Shown here piece after piece: positions 10,346-19,946 of a DNA stretch of 52,611 nt. The notes under the pieces are model-generated. The model searched no databases and was not told the origin of the DNA. It was given only the letters and a program-made list of their open reading frames with translations. The translations under genes were made by a program, and so were the position numbers. The stretch comes from an uncultured Bacillota bacterium (GTDB taxonomy: Bacteria > Bacillota_I > Bacilli_A > Erysipelotrichales > Erysipelotrichaceae): positions 1 through 52,611 of the forward strand of contig CASFYR010000024.1 of assembly GCA_949298975.1 (NCBI GenBank), read 5' to 3'. Numbering within the stretch: the stretch's first letter is position 1; the number at the start of each line of letters is the position of its first letter.

Positions 10346-10380
10346 AAGGCTGACAAAATGAATAAAGTCAGCCTTTTCTT
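10346..10380 (+). terminator. Intrinsic terminator after the MATE gene
   Basis: Nine-base arms AAGGCTGAC and GTCAGCCTT (10346-10354, 10367-10375) are followed by TTCTT. It insulates the amino-sugar operon promoter just downstream. Confidence 0.85.
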
Positions 10381-10418: not shown

Positions 10419-10450
10419 TTGACAAGGTAATACGGGGGGGGGGGTATGCT
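10419..10450 (+). promoter_or_regulatory. Promoter with an 11-G tract in its spacer (candidate phase-variable switch)
   Basis: A perfect -35 TTGACA (10419-10424) and a -10 TATGCT (10445-10450) are separated by 20 bases: nine mixed bases and then eleven consecutive G (10434-10444). Optimal spacing is 17, so loss of three G would give an ideal promoter, while the present state should be weak. Homopolymer G tracts slip readily during replication and are used in several bacteria for promoter phase variation. It is the only visible promoter for the ten-gene locus downstream. Confidence 0.7.
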
Positions 10451-10470
10451 AGTTGTAACAGGAGGTAGTT

Positions 10471-11196
10471 ATGGGGAGAATAGAAGAGATCAGTGATACT
10501 TTTATTAGTAGCATTGAAAGCGCTTACTCAAAACAGGCAGATAATTTACATCGCATATCCAAATTAATTTTCGATGTAATTGCTGACGGAGGAGTTATTC
10601 AGCTTTTTGGGATCGGTCATGGTGAAGAATTTGTCAATGAGCTTAATTTCAGAGCTGGTGGCCTAGCACCGTTTCATGGGATGCGGTTGAGTGATCTGGT
10701 AACCAGAGGTTTGATCGATCAAAACGAGATCGATAACGGCCGAATCAATGAGAGAACTGATATTCTGGATCTTTTTACCAAAATCTATAAGCTGGATGAA
10801 CGCGACGCTTATTTTCTGATCAGTTTCAAAGGCAATGAGCCTTTGATAATTCACTTGGCGAAACAATTAAAAAACCGCGGACATTTGGTTATCGGGGTTG
10901 TAAACCGGAAAACTTATGACCGTTATGCCAATAATGAAGGATTACTGCAGTATTGCGATCAGTACATCGACCTTTCTCTTGATGAACCGGATATAGTGAC
11001 GCAAGTTAACGGCTATCAGATAACCGGGATCACCAGCACGGTTGCGGATATCTTTGCTCAGGACATCAATGCTAATTTATATAATTTATATCTTGAAAAT
11101 CATATTGATCCGCCGATCCTGCTGTCGGCTAACCTCAAAGATGCCGATAAGCACAATAATGCCTTGACTGATGTATATAACGGGAGGGTCAGATAA
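10471..11196 (+). CDS. SIS-domain protein with degenerate phosphosugar motifs
   Basis: A 241-residue cytosolic protein of the sugar-isomerase-domain family often found beside PTS genes. It aligns along its whole length with its neighbour. The two usual phosphosugar-binding motifs are altered: the neighbour's GTGHS reads GIGHG here, and its SNSG reads SFKG (118-121), so both binding serines are gone. It may be a regulatory or structural partner rather than an isomerase. A strong AGGAGGT site precedes the ATG. It is the first gene after the G-tract promoter and its stop overlaps the next start by one base. Confidence 0.75.
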   Translation: MGRIEEISDTFISSIESAYSKQADNLHRISKLIFDVIADGGVIQLFGIGHGEEFVNELNFRAGGLAPFHGMRLSDLVTRGLIDQNEIDNGRINERTDILDLFTKIYKLDERDAYFLISFKGNEPLIIHLAKQLKNRGHLVIGVVNRKTYDRYANNEGLLQYCDQYIDLSLDEPDIVTQVNGYQITGITSTVADIFAQDINANLYNLYLENHIDPPILLSANLKDADKHNNALTDVYNGRVR

Positions 11197-11927
11197 TGGT
11201 CAGCGCCGAGTTATTTAATAAATCCGTCAGCGATCTGATCATTCAGATCGGAAAGAAAGAAGATGACAACTTAACCAAAGCTGCTGAAGTTATGGCAAAA
11301 ACCATTGCAAACGGTGGGGTGGTCCATGTTTTTGGGACCGGCCATTCCGTTGGATTGGGTATTGATATGAAAAACAAGATCGGTTCCCTGATCCCGATCC
11401 ATATCATGCGAATGAATGATTTTGTCTTAAAAGGGGTAGTCAGTTTGGCAGAATACACTGACAAGGACAATGAATTCGAGCGCCGCAGCGGCCTGGCAAA
11501 AGATTTTATCGATCTTTATACAATCAATCCGAACGACAGTTTTATTATCATCTCTAATTCCGGAATCAACGGCATCGTCATTGATTTAGCACTGGAGGCG
11601 AGAAAACGCGGTCATAAAGTTATCGTCGTGACCAGCATGGCACATACTGCTGCTGAGGATTCCCGTCATCCTAGCGGCAAGAAGTTATATCAGTGTGCTG
11701 ATATTGTAATCGATAACTGCGGTCCGCACGGTGACGCGCTGCTGCCGACTGATACAGTTGCCAAAATCTGTTCGGTATCATCGATCTGCAACAATTTCAT
11801 CGCCCAATGCTTAAGTGTATTGACCATCGATTTGCTGATCGAGAAATATCATCTTGATCCACCGGTCATTACCGGAGAAATAGCACATGATGAACAAATA
11901 AAGAATAAATACAGCGAATGCTTGTAA
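11196..11927 (+). CDS. SIS-domain phosphosugar-binding protein
   Basis: The intact paralogue of the preceding gene, 243 residues. GTGHS (48-52) and SNSG (120-123) form the usual SIS phosphosugar-binding site. Family members are isomerases, etherases or sensors of sugar phosphates; the exact reaction here is unknown. The start uses TAATG, overlapping the previous stop. Its place in front of NanE and a mannose-family PTS suggests an amino-sugar phosphate as ligand. It carries no helix-turn-helix, so it is not an RpiR-type regulator. Confidence 0.82.
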   Translation: MVSAELFNKSVSDLIIQIGKKEDDNLTKAAEVMAKTIANGGVVHVFGTGHSVGLGIDMKNKIGSLIPIHIMRMNDFVLKGVVSLAEYTDKDNEFERRSGLAKDFIDLYTINPNDSFIIISNSGINGIVIDLALEARKRGHKVIVVTSMAHTAAEDSRHPSGKKLYQCADIVIDNCGPHGDALLPTDTVAKICSVSSICNNFIAQCLSVLTIDLLIEKYHLDPPVITGEIAHDEQIKNKYSECL

Positions 11928-11937
11928 AGGAGAGGTT

Positions 11938-12639
11938 ATGAAAGAAGTATTAGCTAAAATCAAAGACAAACTAATCGTTTCCTGCCAGGGAAATGCCAGC
12001 GACAACAACCCGTTCCATCGCCCGGAAGATATGCTGATGATGGCCAGAGCAGCCAAGATCGGCGGATGTGCCGGTTTTAGAGCTAATACCCCGCCAAATA
12101 TTGAGGCGATTAAAGGCGAATTCCCGGATGTACCGATGGTCGGAATCTGGAAAGTAGTCACTGAAGGCTGTGATGTCTATATCACTCCGACGATGAAGGA
12201 AGTTGATAAATTGGTTGAGTTAGGCTGTGAAATCATTGCGGTTGATGGAACTAATCGTAAAAACTGCGAAGGAAACTATGCTTATGAATTAATCGGCAAG
12301 ATAAAAGCGAAATATCCAAATCAGGTCGTTATGGCAGACCTGGCAACGCTTTATGAAGCGGAAAAATGTCTTGAACAGGGCGCTGATATCATTTCAACCA
12401 CCCTGTCGGGATACACACAGGAAACTTTGGATAAATATGAAAGGGGGGTTGATCTGGATCTGATCAAAGAGATCAGAACGAAGTTTCCGAATGCCTTCAT
12501 CAATGCTGAAGGCAGAATCTGGACCCTTGATGATGCCCGGAATGCATTTGACTATGGTGCTGATGTCGTAACGATCGGTACTGCAATCACCAGCCCGATG
12601 GCTATCACCAAACGGTTCAATACCATTATCAAAAAGTAA
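11938..12639 (+). CDS. nanE: N-acetylmannosamine-6-phosphate 2-epimerase
   Basis: Converts ManNAc-6-phosphate to GlcNAc-6-phosphate in a TIM barrel. The family's N-terminal SCQ motif (15-17), IWK with candidate catalytic Lys72, AVDGT (101-105) and NAEGR with candidate catalytic Glu191 are all visible; 233 residues is normal. AAGGAGAGG precedes the start. With NagA at the end of the locus it makes a route to glucosamine-6-phosphate. No sialate lyase or ManNAc kinase is seen, so the phosphorylated sugar presumably comes directly from the PTS. Confidence 0.93.
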   Translation: MKEVLAKIKDKLIVSCQGNASDNNPFHRPEDMLMMARAAKIGGCAGFRANTPPNIEAIKGEFPDVPMVGIWKVVTEGCDVYITPTMKEVDKLVELGCEIIAVDGTNRKNCEGNYAYELIGKIKAKYPNQVVMADLATLYEAEKCLEQGADIISTTLSGYTQETLDKYERGVDLDLIKEIRTKFPNAFINAEGRIWTLDDARNAFDYGADVVTIGTAITSPMAITKRFNTIIKK

Positions 12640-12661: not shown

Positions 12662-13417
12662 ATGGGATTCGATCTAGGTTACGTTATTTATGTAACTTTG
12701 GTATGTACGATAATCGGCTGGTTCGGTTATGGTATGTACAATATGTTCTTGAATCAGCCGGTAGTTGCCGGAGCTTTGGTCGGCGGCTTATTAGGCGATC
12801 TTGAGACAGGAGTAATAATTGGTGGAACTCTGCAACTTGTTTATATGGGGGTTGTCGGGGTCGGTGCTGCTATTCCGGTAAATAAAACTACCGCTACTAC
12901 AGTAACGACGGCTCTTTGTATCATGACCGGTATATCAATGGATAACGCTATCGCTTTAGCGGTTCCGGTTGCGGTATTGGGTCAGTTAGCCCAGATGCTG
13001 GCATGGACCTTGAACTCCAGCTTGATGCATGCGGCGGATAATTATGCGGAAAAGGGCGAACTTGATAAAATGGCTCATTTGACCTTTGTTGGTTCAGCTA
13101 TCTTCTTTGTCACCCAGTTAGTACCGATTTTCTTATGCATCTATTTTGGTTCTTCGTTCGTTTCGGCAATCAACGACAATATGCCGGCATTGGTACAAAA
13201 CTGGCTATCTATTTCAACCGGCATGTTACCGGCGCTTGGATTTGGTATGCTGTTTGCAATGATGTACAAGGTAAAATATATTCCTTTCTTCATCATCGGC
13301 TTCGTTTTAACGGCAGTATTTGGCGGTTCACTGTTAGCAGTAGCAGCTCTTGGTTTTGCTTTCGCTATGATCGTCTATTTCTATGTGAACCAAGGTAAGA
13401 AAAAGAAAGGAGCTTAA
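12662..13417 (+). CDS. PTS mannose/sorbose-family transporter subunit IIC
   Basis: One of two membrane subunits that carry the sugar through the membrane. The 251 residues are almost wholly hydrophobic, with the family pattern QPVVAGALVGGLLGDLETG and GAAIPVNKTTATTV. AAAGGAGGAAG precedes the start. The next gene, IID, begins two bases after the stop. Family membership is clear; the sugar is inferred to be an amino sugar from the neighbouring nanE and nagA. Confidence 0.93.
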   Translation: MGFDLGYVIYVTLVCTIIGWFGYGMYNMFLNQPVVAGALVGGLLGDLETGVIIGGTLQLVYMGVVGVGAAIPVNKTTATTVTTALCIMTGISMDNAIALAVPVAVLGQLAQMLAWTLNSSLMHAADNYAEKGELDKMAHLTFVGSAIFFVTQLVPIFLCIYFGSSFVSAINDNMPALVQNWLSISTGMLPALGFGMLFAMMYKVKYIPFFIIGFVLTAVFGGSLLAVAALGFAFAMIVYFYVNQGKKKKGA

Positions 13418-13419
13418 TC

Positions 13420-14283
13420 ATGGCAGAAAACAATGTTGTTGAAAATGTTGAAACTAATGTTCCTCAGCATAAACTTACTAATAAGGAACTAAACAGCTGC
13501 TTCTGGCGTTTTGTATTCTTCCCGATGTGTACCATCAACTACGAGCGTTTCCAGACCCTGCAGTATTTCCAGGCGATGAAAAAGGTCATTCAGAAACTAT
13601 ATCCAAGCAAAGAGGATCAGATCGACGCCGCTAAACGTCACATGGCTTTCTTCAATACTACCCCGCAATGGATGGGCATTCCATTAGGTATCTCTTGTGC
13701 GACCGAAGAAACGATTGCCAATCTGCCTAAAGGAGAAGAAAGAACGGAATTAGAAAATTCAGTTAACGTAGTAAAAGCGTCGCTGATGGGTCCGCTGGCT
13801 GGTATCGGTGATTCCCTTGACGCTACGATCGTCGCCATCATCGGGGCTCTTTCTGCCGGCTTTGCCATTAACGGTTCGATTCTTGGAGCAGTATTGATGC
13901 TTGTTCTGGGCAACGCTTATTATTTATCTATTTGCTATTTTGGTTATTTCTATTCATACCGCAACGGTATTAAAGTTATCCGTGATATGAATAAGTCCAA
14001 TATTTTGGATAAAGTCATGGAAGCAGCTTCGATATTGGGTATGACCGCCCTTGGTGCTTTGGTGCCTTCATGGGTTGGATTTAACTTAACTACCAACATC
14101 CAGATCGGTGACTATGTCCTAAATATCCAGCAGGAATTAAATAATATTATTCCGGGATTAGCACCTCTGGTATTGACATTGATCTTGGCGTCACTTTATA
14201 AGAAGAACATTTCTTCCATTAAATTGGTCGTCTTGATCTTTATCATTGCGTTCGTTATGGCCCTTATCGGTTTAACCGCATAG
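13420..14283 (+). CDS. PTS mannose/sorbose-family transporter subunit IID
   Basis: Partner membrane subunit, unique to this PTS family. The 287 residues begin with a soluble arm (about 1-120) containing the family's FNTTP and MGPLAGIGDSLDATI segments, followed by several membrane helices. AAGGAGCTTA lies just before the start and overlaps the end of IIC. Length and motif order are normal, nearest to the N-acetylgalactosamine/mannose branches; the sequence alone does not fix the substrate. Confidence 0.93.
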   Translation: MAENNVVENVETNVPQHKLTNKELNSCFWRFVFFPMCTINYERFQTLQYFQAMKKVIQKLYPSKEDQIDAAKRHMAFFNTTPQWMGIPLGISCATEETIANLPKGEERTELENSVNVVKASLMGPLAGIGDSLDATIVAIIGALSAGFAINGSILGAVLMLVLGNAYYLSICYFGYFYSYRNGIKVIRDMNKSNILDKVMEAASILGMTALGALVPSWVGFNLTTNIQIGDYVLNIQQELNNIIPGLAPLVLTLILASLYKKNISSIKLVVLIFIIAFVMALIGLTA

Positions 14284-14297
14284 AAAGGAAATTAATT

Positions 14298-14768
14298 ATG
14301 GCAGTTGTACAATATCGATTAGATGGCAGAATGCTGCATGGGCAGGTCAGCACCTTTGCCAAACAGGTTGGTGCCGATCATTTTATCGTTGTTAATGCGG
14401 CAGTAGCACAAGATGATACTCAGATAATGCTCCTGGAACTGGCTGCAATTAATGCAACGGTTGATGTTTGTGCCCCGGATGAATTGGTTGATCTGATCGA
14501 AGAAGACGATGACAGCGATCGTACGATGGTCGTCTTTAAAGAACTTACCGATGTAGTAGAATCGCTGGATGCCGGACTGGAATGCAAAGAGATTTTCATC
14601 AGCGGCATTTATGCTGCAAATGATCGGGAGAAAGTAGCAGCATGTTTGTTCCTCAATGCCAAAGACAAGGCTGATTTGAAATATATCCTGGATAAAGGAG
14701 TCAGCTTAAGTCATCAGATTCAGCCGGATTATCCGAAAAAGGCTATTCAGGATATCGTTAAGTTATAA
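14298..14768 (+). CDS. PTS mannose/sorbose-family enzyme IIB
   Basis: Cytosolic phosphocarrier that passes phosphate from IIA to the sugar. The active-site motif RLDGRMLHGQV carries His14, the phosphorylated residue. The length of 156 residues is usual for this family. It ends two bases before IIA. Having IIB and IIA as separate proteins, rather than the IIAB fusion of E. coli ManX, fits the Gram-positive amino-sugar and sorbose branches. Confidence 0.93.
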   Translation: MAVVQYRLDGRMLHGQVSTFAKQVGADHFIVVNAAVAQDDTQIMLLELAAINATVDVCAPDELVDLIEEDDDSDRTMVVFKELTDVVESLDAGLECKEIFISGIYAANDREKVAACLFLNAKDKADLKYILDKGVSLSHQIQPDYPKKAIQDIVKL

Positions 14769-14770
14769 TT

Positions 14771-15181
14771 ATGAAATCAGTATTAATAATCAGTCACGGT
14801 ACCCTGGCCGAAGGAATGTTCAATACTTTAAAGATATTCTTTGGCAGCGACATTCCTCAATGCGATTATCTGGTATTATCGCCGGATGAAACTGCGGAAG
14901 ATTTTCGCAGTAAATTAGCTGATAAAATCGATGAGCTGGATCAGGGTGACGGAGTCGTTATTTTTGCCGATCTTTTAGGAGGAACACCTTGCAATCAAAC
15001 CGTTTTGCTCAAGGATAAGAATATCCATGTCTTTGCTGGAATGAATCTGGCGGTAATAATGGAATGCTTGTCGGCGCGAATGAGCGGCGATCTTGATTAT
15101 CAAGGATTGGAAGATATTGGAAAACAAGCCGTGATCGATTTTACAAATTTTATCAATAATCGCAGTAAAAAAACTAAATAA
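14771..15181 (+). CDS. PTS mannose-family enzyme IIA
   Basis: Takes phosphate from HPr and hands it to IIB. ISHGTLAEGM near the N-terminus holds the phosphorylated His9, and FADLLGGTPCN is the family's second conserved stretch. At 136 residues it is a normal free-standing IIA. No ribosome site is seen before its ATG, which lies two bases after the IIB stop, so translation is probably coupled. A strong hairpin follows the gene. Confidence 0.92.
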   Translation: MKSVLIISHGTLAEGMFNTLKIFFGSDIPQCDYLVLSPDETAEDFRSKLADKIDELDQGDGVVIFADLLGGTPCNQTVLLKDKNIHVFAGMNLAVIMECLSARMSGDLDYQGLEDIGKQAVIDFTNFINNRSKKTK

Positions 15182-15249: not shown

Positions 15250-16443
15250 ATGAAATTAGCACTAAAAAAATTTAAGATCAATGCCCCTTTTCCTACTACC
15301 CAATGCGGTCATATGACCCAGACTTTCTTGGTTAATGAATTTAAAGATGATCTTTATGGCCGGATGGTAAGCATTATTGATAATGGTCAAGTTTACTACC
15401 ATATTGTATATGATCTTTTAGGTTTAAAAGAATCTTATCAAAACCGAGTCAAAGACTATCTCAAAACTAAAGTAAACGATCCTTTTACTCTGGTAGTTTC
15501 ATCGACCCATACTCATTATGCCCACGACAATCAAAACGAGGCGTTCCTGGACTATTTGTACGATCTGACAGTAAAAGAGATCGACAGTTTAGAATATCAC
15601 GAATATGATAAATTGTATGTGCGTTTTTATCAGGAACACTTTAATAAAGTCGGCAGATCAAGAATTTCCGGCTATGAAAGTAATTTAGAATATCTGGGCG
15701 TAACCGAGATTGCTGCTGATGAGGCAGGAGAAGAAGTGTTGTTGAATCTTATCATCCATAATGTTCATCCAACAATTCTAAGCGCCGATGTAAAGTTCTT
15801 TTCTTCTGAATTTCCCGGCTGTGCTTTAAGAGAGCTTGAAAAGAAATATCCAAAACAATTCTTTATGTATTGTACCGGGGCGGCAGGTGATATCTCGACC
15901 CGTTTCAGCCGCAAGGATCAAACTTATGATTCCGTAATCGAGCTTGGCGGTGTGCTGGCTGATGAAATTGAACGCATTAAACAAAGAAGCGATACCTATA
16001 AACCGTTAAACTTTGCAATCAGGAATACTGAAGTTCCATACGAGCATGAGATAAAAGATATTGATATTTCAAAATTACGGGACGGACTCAGTGAAAGAGA
16101 ACTGATAACCGTTAATTACGGCAAGATCATCCGGGATAAGATGAAAGGCAAAGAAGATACTTTGGAAAAGCACGCCTTGATTACAGCGGTTAAATTAAGC
16201 GACCTGACAATCATCTATTTTCCTAATGAATTATTCTCAGACTACTTGAATAATATCGATCCTGAACGGACAATGGTAGCCACCTATTCTAATGGATATG
16301 CCCCATATATTTTACCGATCGGCTTTAAATATATCACTTACGAAATGTTTTTGGATACGCTCAGTGACAAGACCAAAAAAGATATCGCCAATACTTTGCA
16401 AACGATTGATAAAGGAGAAATATGGAAAACCGAAAAACAATAG
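15250..16443 (+). CDS. Neutral/alkaline ceramidase-like hydrolase
   Basis: A 397-residue protein resembling the catalytic N-terminal domain of neutral, non-lysosomal ceramidases, zinc amidases that cleave N-acyl bonds. Matching landmarks are STHTHYAHD (85-93), NVHPT (171-175), SSEFPG (185-190) and TGAAGDIST (209-217). No signal peptide is seen, so it should be cytosolic, unlike secreted ceramidases. The C-terminal Ig-like domain of true ceramidases is absent. In an amino-sugar operon it may remove an acyl group from an imported sugar, but that is inference. AAGGAGAG precedes the start; the end overlaps the next gene by 22 bases. Confidence 0.68.
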
Positions 16444-17099
16444 CCAACCGGATCGATCATACCTTTCTAAAGGCTTATGCCAGCCGGGAAGATATGATTA
16501 AACTATGTAACGAAGCTAAAGAATATCATACTGCTATGGTAGCGATTAACTCGGCACAAGTTAAACTGTGTAAAGAACTGCTGAAGGGTACGGATATCCA
16601 TGTCGGAGCCGCTATTTCTTTTCCGTTAGGGCAAACGACGATTGCCGCCAAAGTCTTTGAGACGGAAGGTGCGATCAAAAACGGGGCGGACGAAATTGAC
16701 TATGTCATCAATATCACAGCTTTGAAAAACAAGGATTACGATTATCTGGAAGAAGAAATGCGGGCGATTGTTGATATCTGCCGTGCCCATAATGTCATCA
16801 GTAAGGTAATTTTTGAGAACTGTTACCTGACTGAAGAAGAGATAAAAAAGATGTGTGAGATTGCTTTAAAGTGCCTGCCGGATTATATCAAGACCTCGAC
16901 CGGTTTTGGGACATCAGGAGCTACGCTTAAAGACATCAAATTGATGAAAGAGATGGTAGGCGATAAAATCAAAGTCAAAGCAGCCGGTGGGATCAGATCT
17001 TATGCTGATTACAAGAAGTATGTTGAAGCCGGAGCTGAAAGGATCGGCACCAGCAGTACGCTCAAGATCATCAAGGAGTTTGAAGAAGGTAAGTTATGA
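16422..17099 (+). CDS. deoC: Deoxyribose-phosphate aldolase family protein
   Basis: A Schiff-base aldolase with a TIM barrel, 225 residues. YIKTSTGF holds the candidate Schiff-base Lys157, VKAAGG the second lysine (Lys186), and EIDYVIN the usual acidic residue. True DeoC splits 2-deoxyribose-5-phosphate into glyceraldehyde-3-phosphate and acetaldehyde. Departures from usual DeoC (AINSAQV where VCVNP is typical, AISFPLG where VIGFPLG is typical) and the lack of nucleoside genes nearby suggest another aldol substrate is possible. AAAGGAG lies inside the previous gene; the end overlaps nagA by ATGA. Confidence 0.85.
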
Positions 17100-18259
17100 G
17101 TTTAGTTTTGATTAATGGCCGGATTGTCGATGGAATAAATGAGCCGTATATCGGCTATGTTGAGATGACAGGGGATACGATCACTAATGTCGCCAAAGGC
17201 GAATATCACGGGCATAAACAAACTTTTGACCTTGGCGGCTGTTATCTGATGCCGGGAATGATCGATGTCCATATTCATGGCAGCTATGGCTATGATTTTA
17301 TCAAGGATCCGCAAACTTCGGTTGATGAGGTAGCCAAAGGATTATACAAAGAAGGAACGACGGCCTTTTTAGCCAGCCTGACCGTTATCAGCCATAAGGA
17401 ATTGTGTTCCTTGCTCGAAGAGTATGCCGATGTCATTTCAAAACCGGGACAGTCGCGTTTTTTAGGCGTTCACAGCGAAGGGCCTTTTTTGGCAAAGGAA
17501 TATAAAGCCCTGATGGATGACCATTATTTAAGACCTTTTAAAAGAAGTGAATTTGCCGAAATGATAAGCAAAGCCAAAGGAAAACTTAAAACGATGACGA
17601 TCGCTCCGGAATTGCCTAATTTTGATGACATTCTGGATCTGGCAAATGAGAATCAGGTAAAACTTATGATCGGTCATTCAGCCGCTACCTGTGACGAAGC
17701 TATTTCGGCTATCGAAAAAGGATGTTCCGGCTATACTCATCTTTACAATGCCATGAGTCAGCACACCCATCGGGACCCCGGCATTGTTACAGCGGCTCTT
17801 TTGACCGGTGACGGATATGCAGAGCTGATCTGCGACGGCTTTCATATCGATAGAAAAGTTATCAAAGTAACTTATGATAAACTGGGATCAGACAAGATCG
17901 TTTTGATCACTGATGCTATGCCGGGCAAAGGTATGGGTGATGGTGAATATGTCTTTTCAAAACTTAACTGCCGCAAAGTCGGCAATACGGTAAGGGTCAT
18001 TGATACCGGACGGATCGCCGGCAGTGCTATCACTCAGCTTGACGCCATTAAAAACATGCGGGAATTTACCGGATGTTCAATAATCGATCTGGCAAAAATG
18101 TCATCATTAAATCCGGCCCGGCTTTTAGGAATTGATCACCGATATGGTTCGATCGGAGTGCATAAAGCGGCGGATTTGATTGTTTTAGATGAAGATCTAT
18201 CTTTGAAATATACTTTTATTGATGGAGAGTGTGTTTATTCTTCGATAAAGAATATTTAA
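17096..18259 (+). CDS. nagA: N-acetylglucosamine-6-phosphate deacetylase
   Basis: Hydrolyses GlcNAc-6-phosphate to glucosamine-6-phosphate and acetate. The amidohydrolase barrel shows the HIH motif (59-61), metal-binding Glu128 in GVHSEGP, His194 in GHSAAT, His215 in THLYNAM, and catalytic Asp273 in ITDAMPG. The 387 residues are standard. It starts within the deoC stop (ATGA), so the two are coupled. It completes the NanE-NagA route. No glucosamine-6-phosphate deaminase (nagB) lies in this window. Confidence 0.94.
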
Positions 18260-18533: not shown

Positions 18534-19946
18534 ATGAAAAGAAAATTTATAACGATAATATTGAGCATGTTGATGCTGGCGGTATTGCTGCCGACGGCGA
18601 TAGTGGCGGACGAAAAATTAACAATCACTTCAAATGTTGAGTATTATAACAAGAATTCTGATGAAAGTATAAATACGGTTGATTTTACTTTTGTTGGATC
18701 CGATTATAGTTTTGCCGGAGTAGTTGATGTTTACGTTAATAACGAACAAGTTAATGAAGCAGTGGATTATGTTACATTCGGATATTCCGGTGGTTACAAT
18801 TATGTCTACTTTTATTCCGATTTTATTAAGAGTTTTTCTGGTGATATTAATGCTGAAATCCGAATCGGCGGCGGTTATAATCAGACATTTAATGTCACCA
18901 TTAAAAACGAATTCTATGAACTGGCTGTTGATGTAGAAGCACCGGAAGGCGTTGACACAGAAGATGTATGGTCAGCCTTTGTTGATGAGTTAGGTTACAT
19001 AGATGGAAATCGAGATTTGATTTATGTGCCAAAAGGACAGTCGATCTCACTTTACGAATATAATTATTTGAAAGATAATATCATTTCCGAAGGCTGGTAT
19101 CTTGACGGTCAAAAAATCGAAGACGAAATAATCCCGACCCAAGACGGTGTGCTGACACTTAAATATGATTATCTTTCTTATGAATTGGACACAAATACTA
19201 ATGATATTGATTTTGGCAGTCTCAACCCGGGGTATGAAGTACCACCGGCAAAAGAGCTGACGATCACAAACGAAGGTAATGAGGCAGTAATATTGTACGA
19301 TTTCAGCAACGAGGAATGGGCCGAGTATAATCCAAAATATTATAATATTGAAGGATTTGACAAAATGGAAACTCCATACTTATTCCCAGGAGAGAGCGTA
19401 ACATTATCAATTACCCCATTGCCGGACTTGCCTTTGGGAAACTATGATGAGACAATTACTTTCTATGGCATAGAGAACATGGAAATTATGCCGATGGCGA
19501 GATCCACTAACGGCACAAGATTGTCTACATCACTAGCAGATGTAACCCTTAGTGAGCTTGATGTAGATATTCACTTCTCGGTGGTTGAGAAAAAGGCGGA
19601 GTACACATTAACTTTTGAAACAAATGGTGGGGAAACGATCCAAAAAGTGACACAGGAAGAAGGAACCAGCGTTGATCTGAGCAAATATGTACCAAGTCGA
19701 AACGGCTATGAATTCGGGGGCTGGTATCTTGATAAAGAATTAAGCACTAAAGCAAACAGCGTTGTATTAGACAGCAACAAAGTTGTTTATGCTGCGTGGG
19801 AAAAAATTAAAGATCCGGCAACAGGAGTTACAATACCGGATACCGGTGATGGTCAGATCGGTTATAATCTGCTGCTGCCGTCAGCTATAACCGTTATGGC
19901 AATATTAGTAATGATCAAGCAATATAAACAAAAAGACAACCGCTAA
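18534..19946 (+). CDS. Sortase-anchored surface protein with InlB B-like repeat
   Basis: A secreted 470-residue protein. It has a signal peptide (basic MKRK, hydrophobic core, likely cut after Ala25) and acidic beta-rich segments. An Ig-like segment around 220-320 (ELTITNEGNEAVILYD) is followed by one InlB B-type/Listeria-Bacteroides repeat (about 358-425, FETNGG and YEFGGWYLD). The end is a wall-sorting signal: IPDTG (434-438), a hydrophobic helix and the basic tail KQYKQKDNR. The motif is an LPXTG variant with Ile first, so a sortase should anchor it to peptidoglycan. Function is unknown; adhesion is plausible. AAGGAGG lies about 14 bases upstream. Confidence 0.75.
   Translation: MKRKFITIILSMLMLAVLLPTAIVADEKLTITSNVEYYNKNSDESINTVDFTFVGSDYSFAGVVDVYVNNEQVNEAVDYVTFGYSGGYNYVYFYSDFIKSFSGDINAEIRIGGGYNQTFNVTIKNEFYELAVDVEAPEGVDTEDVWSAFVDELGYIDGNRDLIYVPKGQSISLYEYNYLKDNIISEGWYLDGQKIEDEIIPTQDGVLTLKYDYLSYELDTNTNDIDFGSLNPGYEVPPAKELTITNEGNEAVILYDFSNEEWAEYNPKYYNIEGFDKMETPYLFPGESVTLSITPLPDLPLGNYDETITFYGIENMEIMPMARSTNGTRLSTSLADVTLSELDVDIHFSVVEKKAEYTLTFETNGGETIQKVTQEEGTSVDLSKYVPSRNGYEFGGWYLDKELSTKANSVVLDSNKVVYAAWEKIKDPATGVTIPDTGDGQIGYNLLLPSAITVMAILVMIKQYKQKDNR

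Follow-up and report, generated by a model that had tools for sequence, protein, structure and literature searches.

The promoter of a ten-gene amino-sugar operon in this genome appears to be a phase-variation (contingency) switch that acts through slipped-strand changes in the promoter spacer, a reading to which we assign a probability of about 0.86. The operon lies in the window, i.e. the whole 52.6-kb stretch of DNA that was analysed (52,611 nucleotides). The sequence-only reading of the window had placed TTGACA and TATGCT 20 bp apart with 11 Gs at 10434-10444 between them, and re-reading the sequence gives exactly this arrangement, TTGACA-AGGTAATAC-GGGGGGGGGGG-TATGCT at 10419-10450 with a spacer of 20 bp. 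The window genome is a draft of 89 contigs, and the exact number of Gs may be off by one. The features of the promoter and of the operon are as follows.

10346..10375, + strand: intrinsic-terminator-like hairpin (AAGGCTGAC ... GTCAGCCTT, then TTCTT) at the end of the upstream MatE gene, found by eye
10419..10424, + strand: -35 element TTGACA, read from the sequence; the orthologous promoter and the sibling tract promoters have the identical hexamer
10425-10444: spacer of 20 bp, AGGTAATAC plus 11 G, read from the sequence
10434..10444, + strand: G11 tract, the proposed slippage site, adjoining the -10 element; the orthologous promoter has G8
10445..10450, + strand: -10 element TATGCT, TATATT in the ortholog; together with the 5' flank of the tract it reads TTGACAAGGTAATAC-Gn-TATGCT
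10460..10465, + strand: Shine-Dalgarno sequence AGGAGG, with the ATG at 10471
10471..11196, + strand: SIS-domain sugar isomerase 1
11196..11927, + strand: SIS-domain sugar isomerase 2 (PRK02947 type)
11938..12639, + strand: NanE-type N-acetylmannosamine-6-phosphate 2-epimerase
12662..13417, + strand: mannose-family PTS EIIC
13420..14283, + strand: mannose-family PTS EIID
14298..14768, + strand: mannose-family PTS EIIB
14771..15181, + strand: mannose-family PTS EIIA
15250..16443, + strand: 397-aa protein with no Pfam match and, from a structure model, a neutral-ceramidase-like fold
16422..17099, + strand: DeoC-type aldolase
17096..18259, + strand: NagA-type N-acetylglucosamine-6-phosphate deacetylase

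The tract is intergenic, as no stop-to-stop frame of more than 65 codons spans it, and its gap is flanked 5' by the terminator-like hairpin of the MatE gene and 3' by the ten tightly packed genes. The hairpin has its stem at 10346-10354/10367-10375 as read by eye, and it was missed by the terminator scan because its loop of 12 nt is too long for that scan. Transcription would start near 10457 with a predicted leader of ~14 nt, and both here and in the ortholog the promoter sits directly 5' of a translated gene with a Shine-Dalgarno sequence. The claim that this is the only visible promoter of the locus is a fair one, since promoter-like matches inside the operon are not enriched (26 versus 24.3 in shuffled sequences), yet these counts are no proof of it. 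The Gs of the tract lie on the strand with positive GC skew. The dnaA gene is found at 1256-2602 on the - strand, 8 kb from the tract, and the window therefore probably includes the replication-origin region.

The 397-aa protein is conserved in the orthologous operon, and also near a paralogous SIS/PTS cluster that this genome carries. Its predicted fold matches neutral ceramidases (Foldseek E value of 1e-10 to 4wgk and 2zws, with a model pLDDT of 58), and hence the protein may be an amide hydrolase, a candidate for acting on an N-acylated sugar. The gene after the operon (18534-19946) encodes a signal peptide, a Listeria-Bacteroides repeat and an IPDTG/hydrophobic tail, and its product is likely a cell-wall-anchored surface protein.

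The placement of the G11 tract is not due to chance. It is the sole run of G or C longer than 6 in the window, where the other runs are seven five-mers and one six-mer, and a first-order Markov estimate gives 0.007 expected runs of at least 11 per window and 0.17 per genome. We checked all 115 G-runs of at least 4 on both strands of the window for TTGACA 3-12 nt before the run and TANNNT 0-2 nt after it, and this tract was the only one with both. The locus thus has a homopolymer of at least 8 between a recognisable -35 and -10, the arrangement of the porA/TP0126 kind of loci. A G-quadruplex or a regulator-binding role of the tract was considered and set aside, as neither is needed to explain a single run that adjoins the -10 and has the spacing of a promoter.

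All long G-runs of the genus show the same architecture. All six G-runs of at least 9 in the nine genus genomes lie between TTGACA and TANNNT with the G on the sense strand, versus one of 29 tracts sampled from other members of the family (Fisher 4e-6); the chance of this arrangement is ~2e-4 per tract by a rough base-composition estimate. No poly-C counterpart of the promoter was found in the genus. We searched more widely with the pattern TTGACA-N3-12-G8+-N0-2-TANNNT, which permits spacers of 11-22 bp, and found 28 sites in 18 of 273 family genomes and 38 sites in 24 of 316 order genomes. The spacers at the matched sites span only 15-21 bp of the allowed range, as expected of real promoters.

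An artefact of assembly or sequencing, or a G-run arisen by chance, is hardly credible as the source of this pattern. Homopolymers are error-prone and the genome is a draft, and an error could shift the count by about one, but it could not create a whole class of promoters. The architecture recurs independently at the orthologous promoter of another genus member, and the 38 sites in the order compare with 0 for the backwards-pattern control. The recurrence in the ortholog and across the order therefore refutes an artefact, except for the exact G count.

Across wider bacteria, scanned for spacers of 14-20 bp with one genome per species, the spacer length peaks at 19 bp (39 of the 122 matches listed). 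This peak at 19 rather than 17 bp means either that OFF alleles are common or that the G-run shifts the best spacing. Promoters of the form TTGACA-N-G9+-TANNNT were observed in many phyla, including Treponema, other Spirochaetes, Saccharibacteria, Clostridia, Alphaproteobacteria and Lentisphaerae (L087-L203), with a spacer mode of 19 bp and two tract promoters each on some contigs. One genome (G113; C8, C10 and C18; L215, L230, L236 and L238) has four tract promoters that share the near-identical leader TTGACAAACTCTGTC-G10/11 and precede different genes, as though one promoter cassette had been copied to several places. Another site (L048 in G013:C3) reads TTGACA-AAATTATGC-G14-TAACCT with a spacer of 23 bp, and two sibling promoters in the same genome have 17 bp.

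The genus apparently lacks the mismatch repair proteins MutS and MutL, and slippage rates should therefore rise. No MutS1 profile match above the cut-off was found in the nine genus genomes, versus 242 of the 316 order genomes, and the weak MutS1 matches in the genus, in frames of ~760 codons, appear to resemble MutS2. MutL is below the cut-off or absent in all nine (0/9 above). The genera g12, g20, g45 and g46 are also apparently without MutS and MutL; g12, g20 and g46, which have tract promoters, lack both where tested, and two genomes that are 98-99% complete (G145 and G149) have zero matches to the MutS or MutL profile. Tract promoters occur in 11 of the 52 genomes of MutS-less genera versus 13 of the 264 others (Fisher 4e-4, kinship ignored), and at the genus level in 4 of 5 MutS-less genera versus 11 of 75 others (p=0.004, kinship ignored). 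We take this association as supporting evidence only. The slippage switch proposed from the sequence alone thus gains support both from the architecture shared by all long G-runs in the genus and from the missing MutS and MutL.

Tract lengths differ between related promoters. The operon of the other genus member (G006) has the order SIS1-SIS2-NanE-IIC-IID-IIB-IIA-U397, the same as the eight leading genes here, with 49-81% identity, and its promoter reads TTGACA-N9-G8-TATATT with a spacer of 17 bp. This is exactly the G8/17-bp form that the sequence-only reading had named as ideal. Both promoters have N9 before the tract, so three Gs separate the alleles of the two species. The comparison of tract lengths across related genomes, which that reading had suggested, thus gave different lengths between orthologs with the hexamers in place. 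Similar differences were observed in the pairs G113/G143 (G11 versus G10, near-identical flanks) and G202/G204 (G12 versus G10) and between paralogs in G174 (G8 versus G9), with the promoter core otherwise kept in all three cases. With one genome per species, these length differences with kept hexamers are between species or paralogs only.

Such differences could also be explained if the tract set a fixed, weak basal promoter strength through its 20-bp spacer, with no switch and with lengths drifting neutrally between species. The length variation observed between species and paralogs only agrees with this explanation, as does the equal tract length of two species, G114 and G120, which both have G9 with identical flanks. 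However, neutral drift would not account for promoter spacers holding all six of the genus's long G-runs, nor would it keep the spacers at 15-21 bp, and an 11-G run would hardly be stable in a cell without MutS and MutL. We therefore consider a fixed basal strength unlikely. The window's genome also has a paralogous SIS/PTS cluster (C7), which lacks a tract; a sugar system of this type is therefore not always switched.

The 20-bp spacer could suggest a MerR-type regulator that untwists the spacer to activate the promoter, with the G-run being incidental, as the spacer range of MerR-type activators includes 20 bp. The ten genes encode no recognisable regulator, in agreement with the sequence-only reading, and so there is no linked MerR gene; no dyad symmetry is seen by eye in AGGTAATAC-G11. 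The spacer is also not fixed at 19-20 bp: this promoter has 20 bp, its ortholog 17 bp and the siblings 15-21 bp. We rejected a MerR-type promoter on these three grounds and regard it as very improbable.

In the slippage switch that we propose, replication slippage in G11 would add or remove single Gs and thereby change the distance between TTGACA and TATGCT. The sigma-A polymerase would use the promoter well at a spacer of 17-18 bp (G8-G9), whereas a 20-bp spacer (G11) would serve it poorly; for comparison, the preferred distance in plain TTGACA-TATAAT pairs of this genome is 16-17 bp (7 of 15). Slipped Gs would stay uncorrected because of the loss of MutS and MutL. A clonal population would then be a mix of cells making or barely making the SIS/NanE/PTS/NagA proteins of amino-sugar uptake and breakdown, and sugar supply would select among the length variants. 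We infer both the slippage within populations and the dependence of transcription on tract length. The assembled G11 allele with its 20-bp spacer is probably low or OFF, and we predict G8 to be ON, G9 intermediate and G11 low, because of the precedents of porA, fetA and opc and the optimum of 17 bp at TP0126. Eight Gs is a plausible best state; in many tract promoters the spacer measures 18-20 bp.

Various genes lie behind the tract promoters. There are three tract loci in the window's genome (G000) and two in G007. One of the latter (G007:C16; G12, 20 bp) precedes an exopolysaccharide operon with Polysacc_synt_2 as its first gene, followed by a NusG-like protein, an aminotransferase, a sugar transferase and a glycosyltransferase. 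A contig-end gene resembling the first protein of that operon lies behind a tract promoter in the window's genome (G000:C28; G10, 17 bp), starting ~255 nt downstream. Of the remaining loci, G000:C20 precedes the gene of a small lipoprotein, with a TetR-like gene and an ABC transporter behind it, G005:C76 precedes that of a protein with a signal peptide and a VPDTG/membrane/KKR tail, i.e. a cell-wall surface protein, and G007:C5 precedes that of a TM2-like protein; the TetR, ABC, TM2 and sorting-tail names were read from the sequences with no profile scan. In other members of the family, tract promoters repeatedly precede genes for surface proteins, lipoproteins and ABC transporters. Contingency loci typically target surface proteins, exopolysaccharide and lipoproteins. 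Several loci per genome thus lie at surface or host-interaction genes, and the window locus itself is catabolic, which makes this PTS operon an unusual target, not being a surface antigen. Judged by its gene content (PTS, sortase-type tails), this is a low-GC, Gram-positive lineage.

Most of the known slippage promoters belong to pathogens and their antigen genes. The homopolymer of Mycobacterium tuberculosis glpK sits in coding sequence. Its phase variation affects a carbon-metabolism gene (PMC11868660), as may be the case here, but this is a kinase gene and not a promoter spacer. The statement of the sequence-only reading that slipped-strand changes switch promoters in other bacteria holds for porA, fetA and TP0126 (PMC2791445, PMC5320596, PMC7864442). 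In porA, fetA and opc of Neisseria meningitidis the homopolymer length between -35 and -10 sets transcription (PMC2791445; PMC5320596). The unstable homopolymer in the -35/-10 spacer is shared with the promoter studied here; porA and fetA encode outer-membrane antigens of a Gram-negative pathogen, with poly-C at fetA, whereas here a catabolic PTS operon of a low-GC lineage without MutS and MutL is concerned and the G is always on the sense strand. The closest structural match is TP0126 (OmpW) of Treponema pallidum, with poly-G between -35 and -10 and the best transcription at 17 bp (PMC7864442), but that is a single surface protein of a spirochaete. In Bifidobacterium breve, a Gram-positive gut commensal, G-tract slippage is an ON/OFF switch of pili (PMC9187656), although the tract is intragenic and does not act on promoter spacing. 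One-base indels in an intergenic T-tract alter the transcript level at Spy1336/R28-Spy1337 of Streptococcus pyogenes (PMC7098570), also a Gram-positive intergenic homopolymer; it differs in being poly-T, in changing repeat spacing in a regulatory region rather than the -35/-10 spacer and in its adhesin target.

The mechanism is therefore already known, and the lineage is apparently new. Our literature search, which took in few subscription papers, found no description of tract-based phase variation in Erysipelotrichia-type bacteria, nor, within the same limit, of any PTS operon controlled in this way. We lean towards the view that this low-GC group without mismatch repair has genome-wide poly-G promoter-spacer switches, by which PTS amino-sugar catabolism is switched at random, together with exopolysaccharide and surface proteins. 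The device here is a repeated class, tied to the loss of MutS and MutL, at a sugar-uptake operon. If the reading is true, nutrient use would be bet-hedged through the slippage mechanism that varies antigens elsewhere, and we would expect stochastic nutrient-use subpopulations that could be read from sequencing data by G counts.
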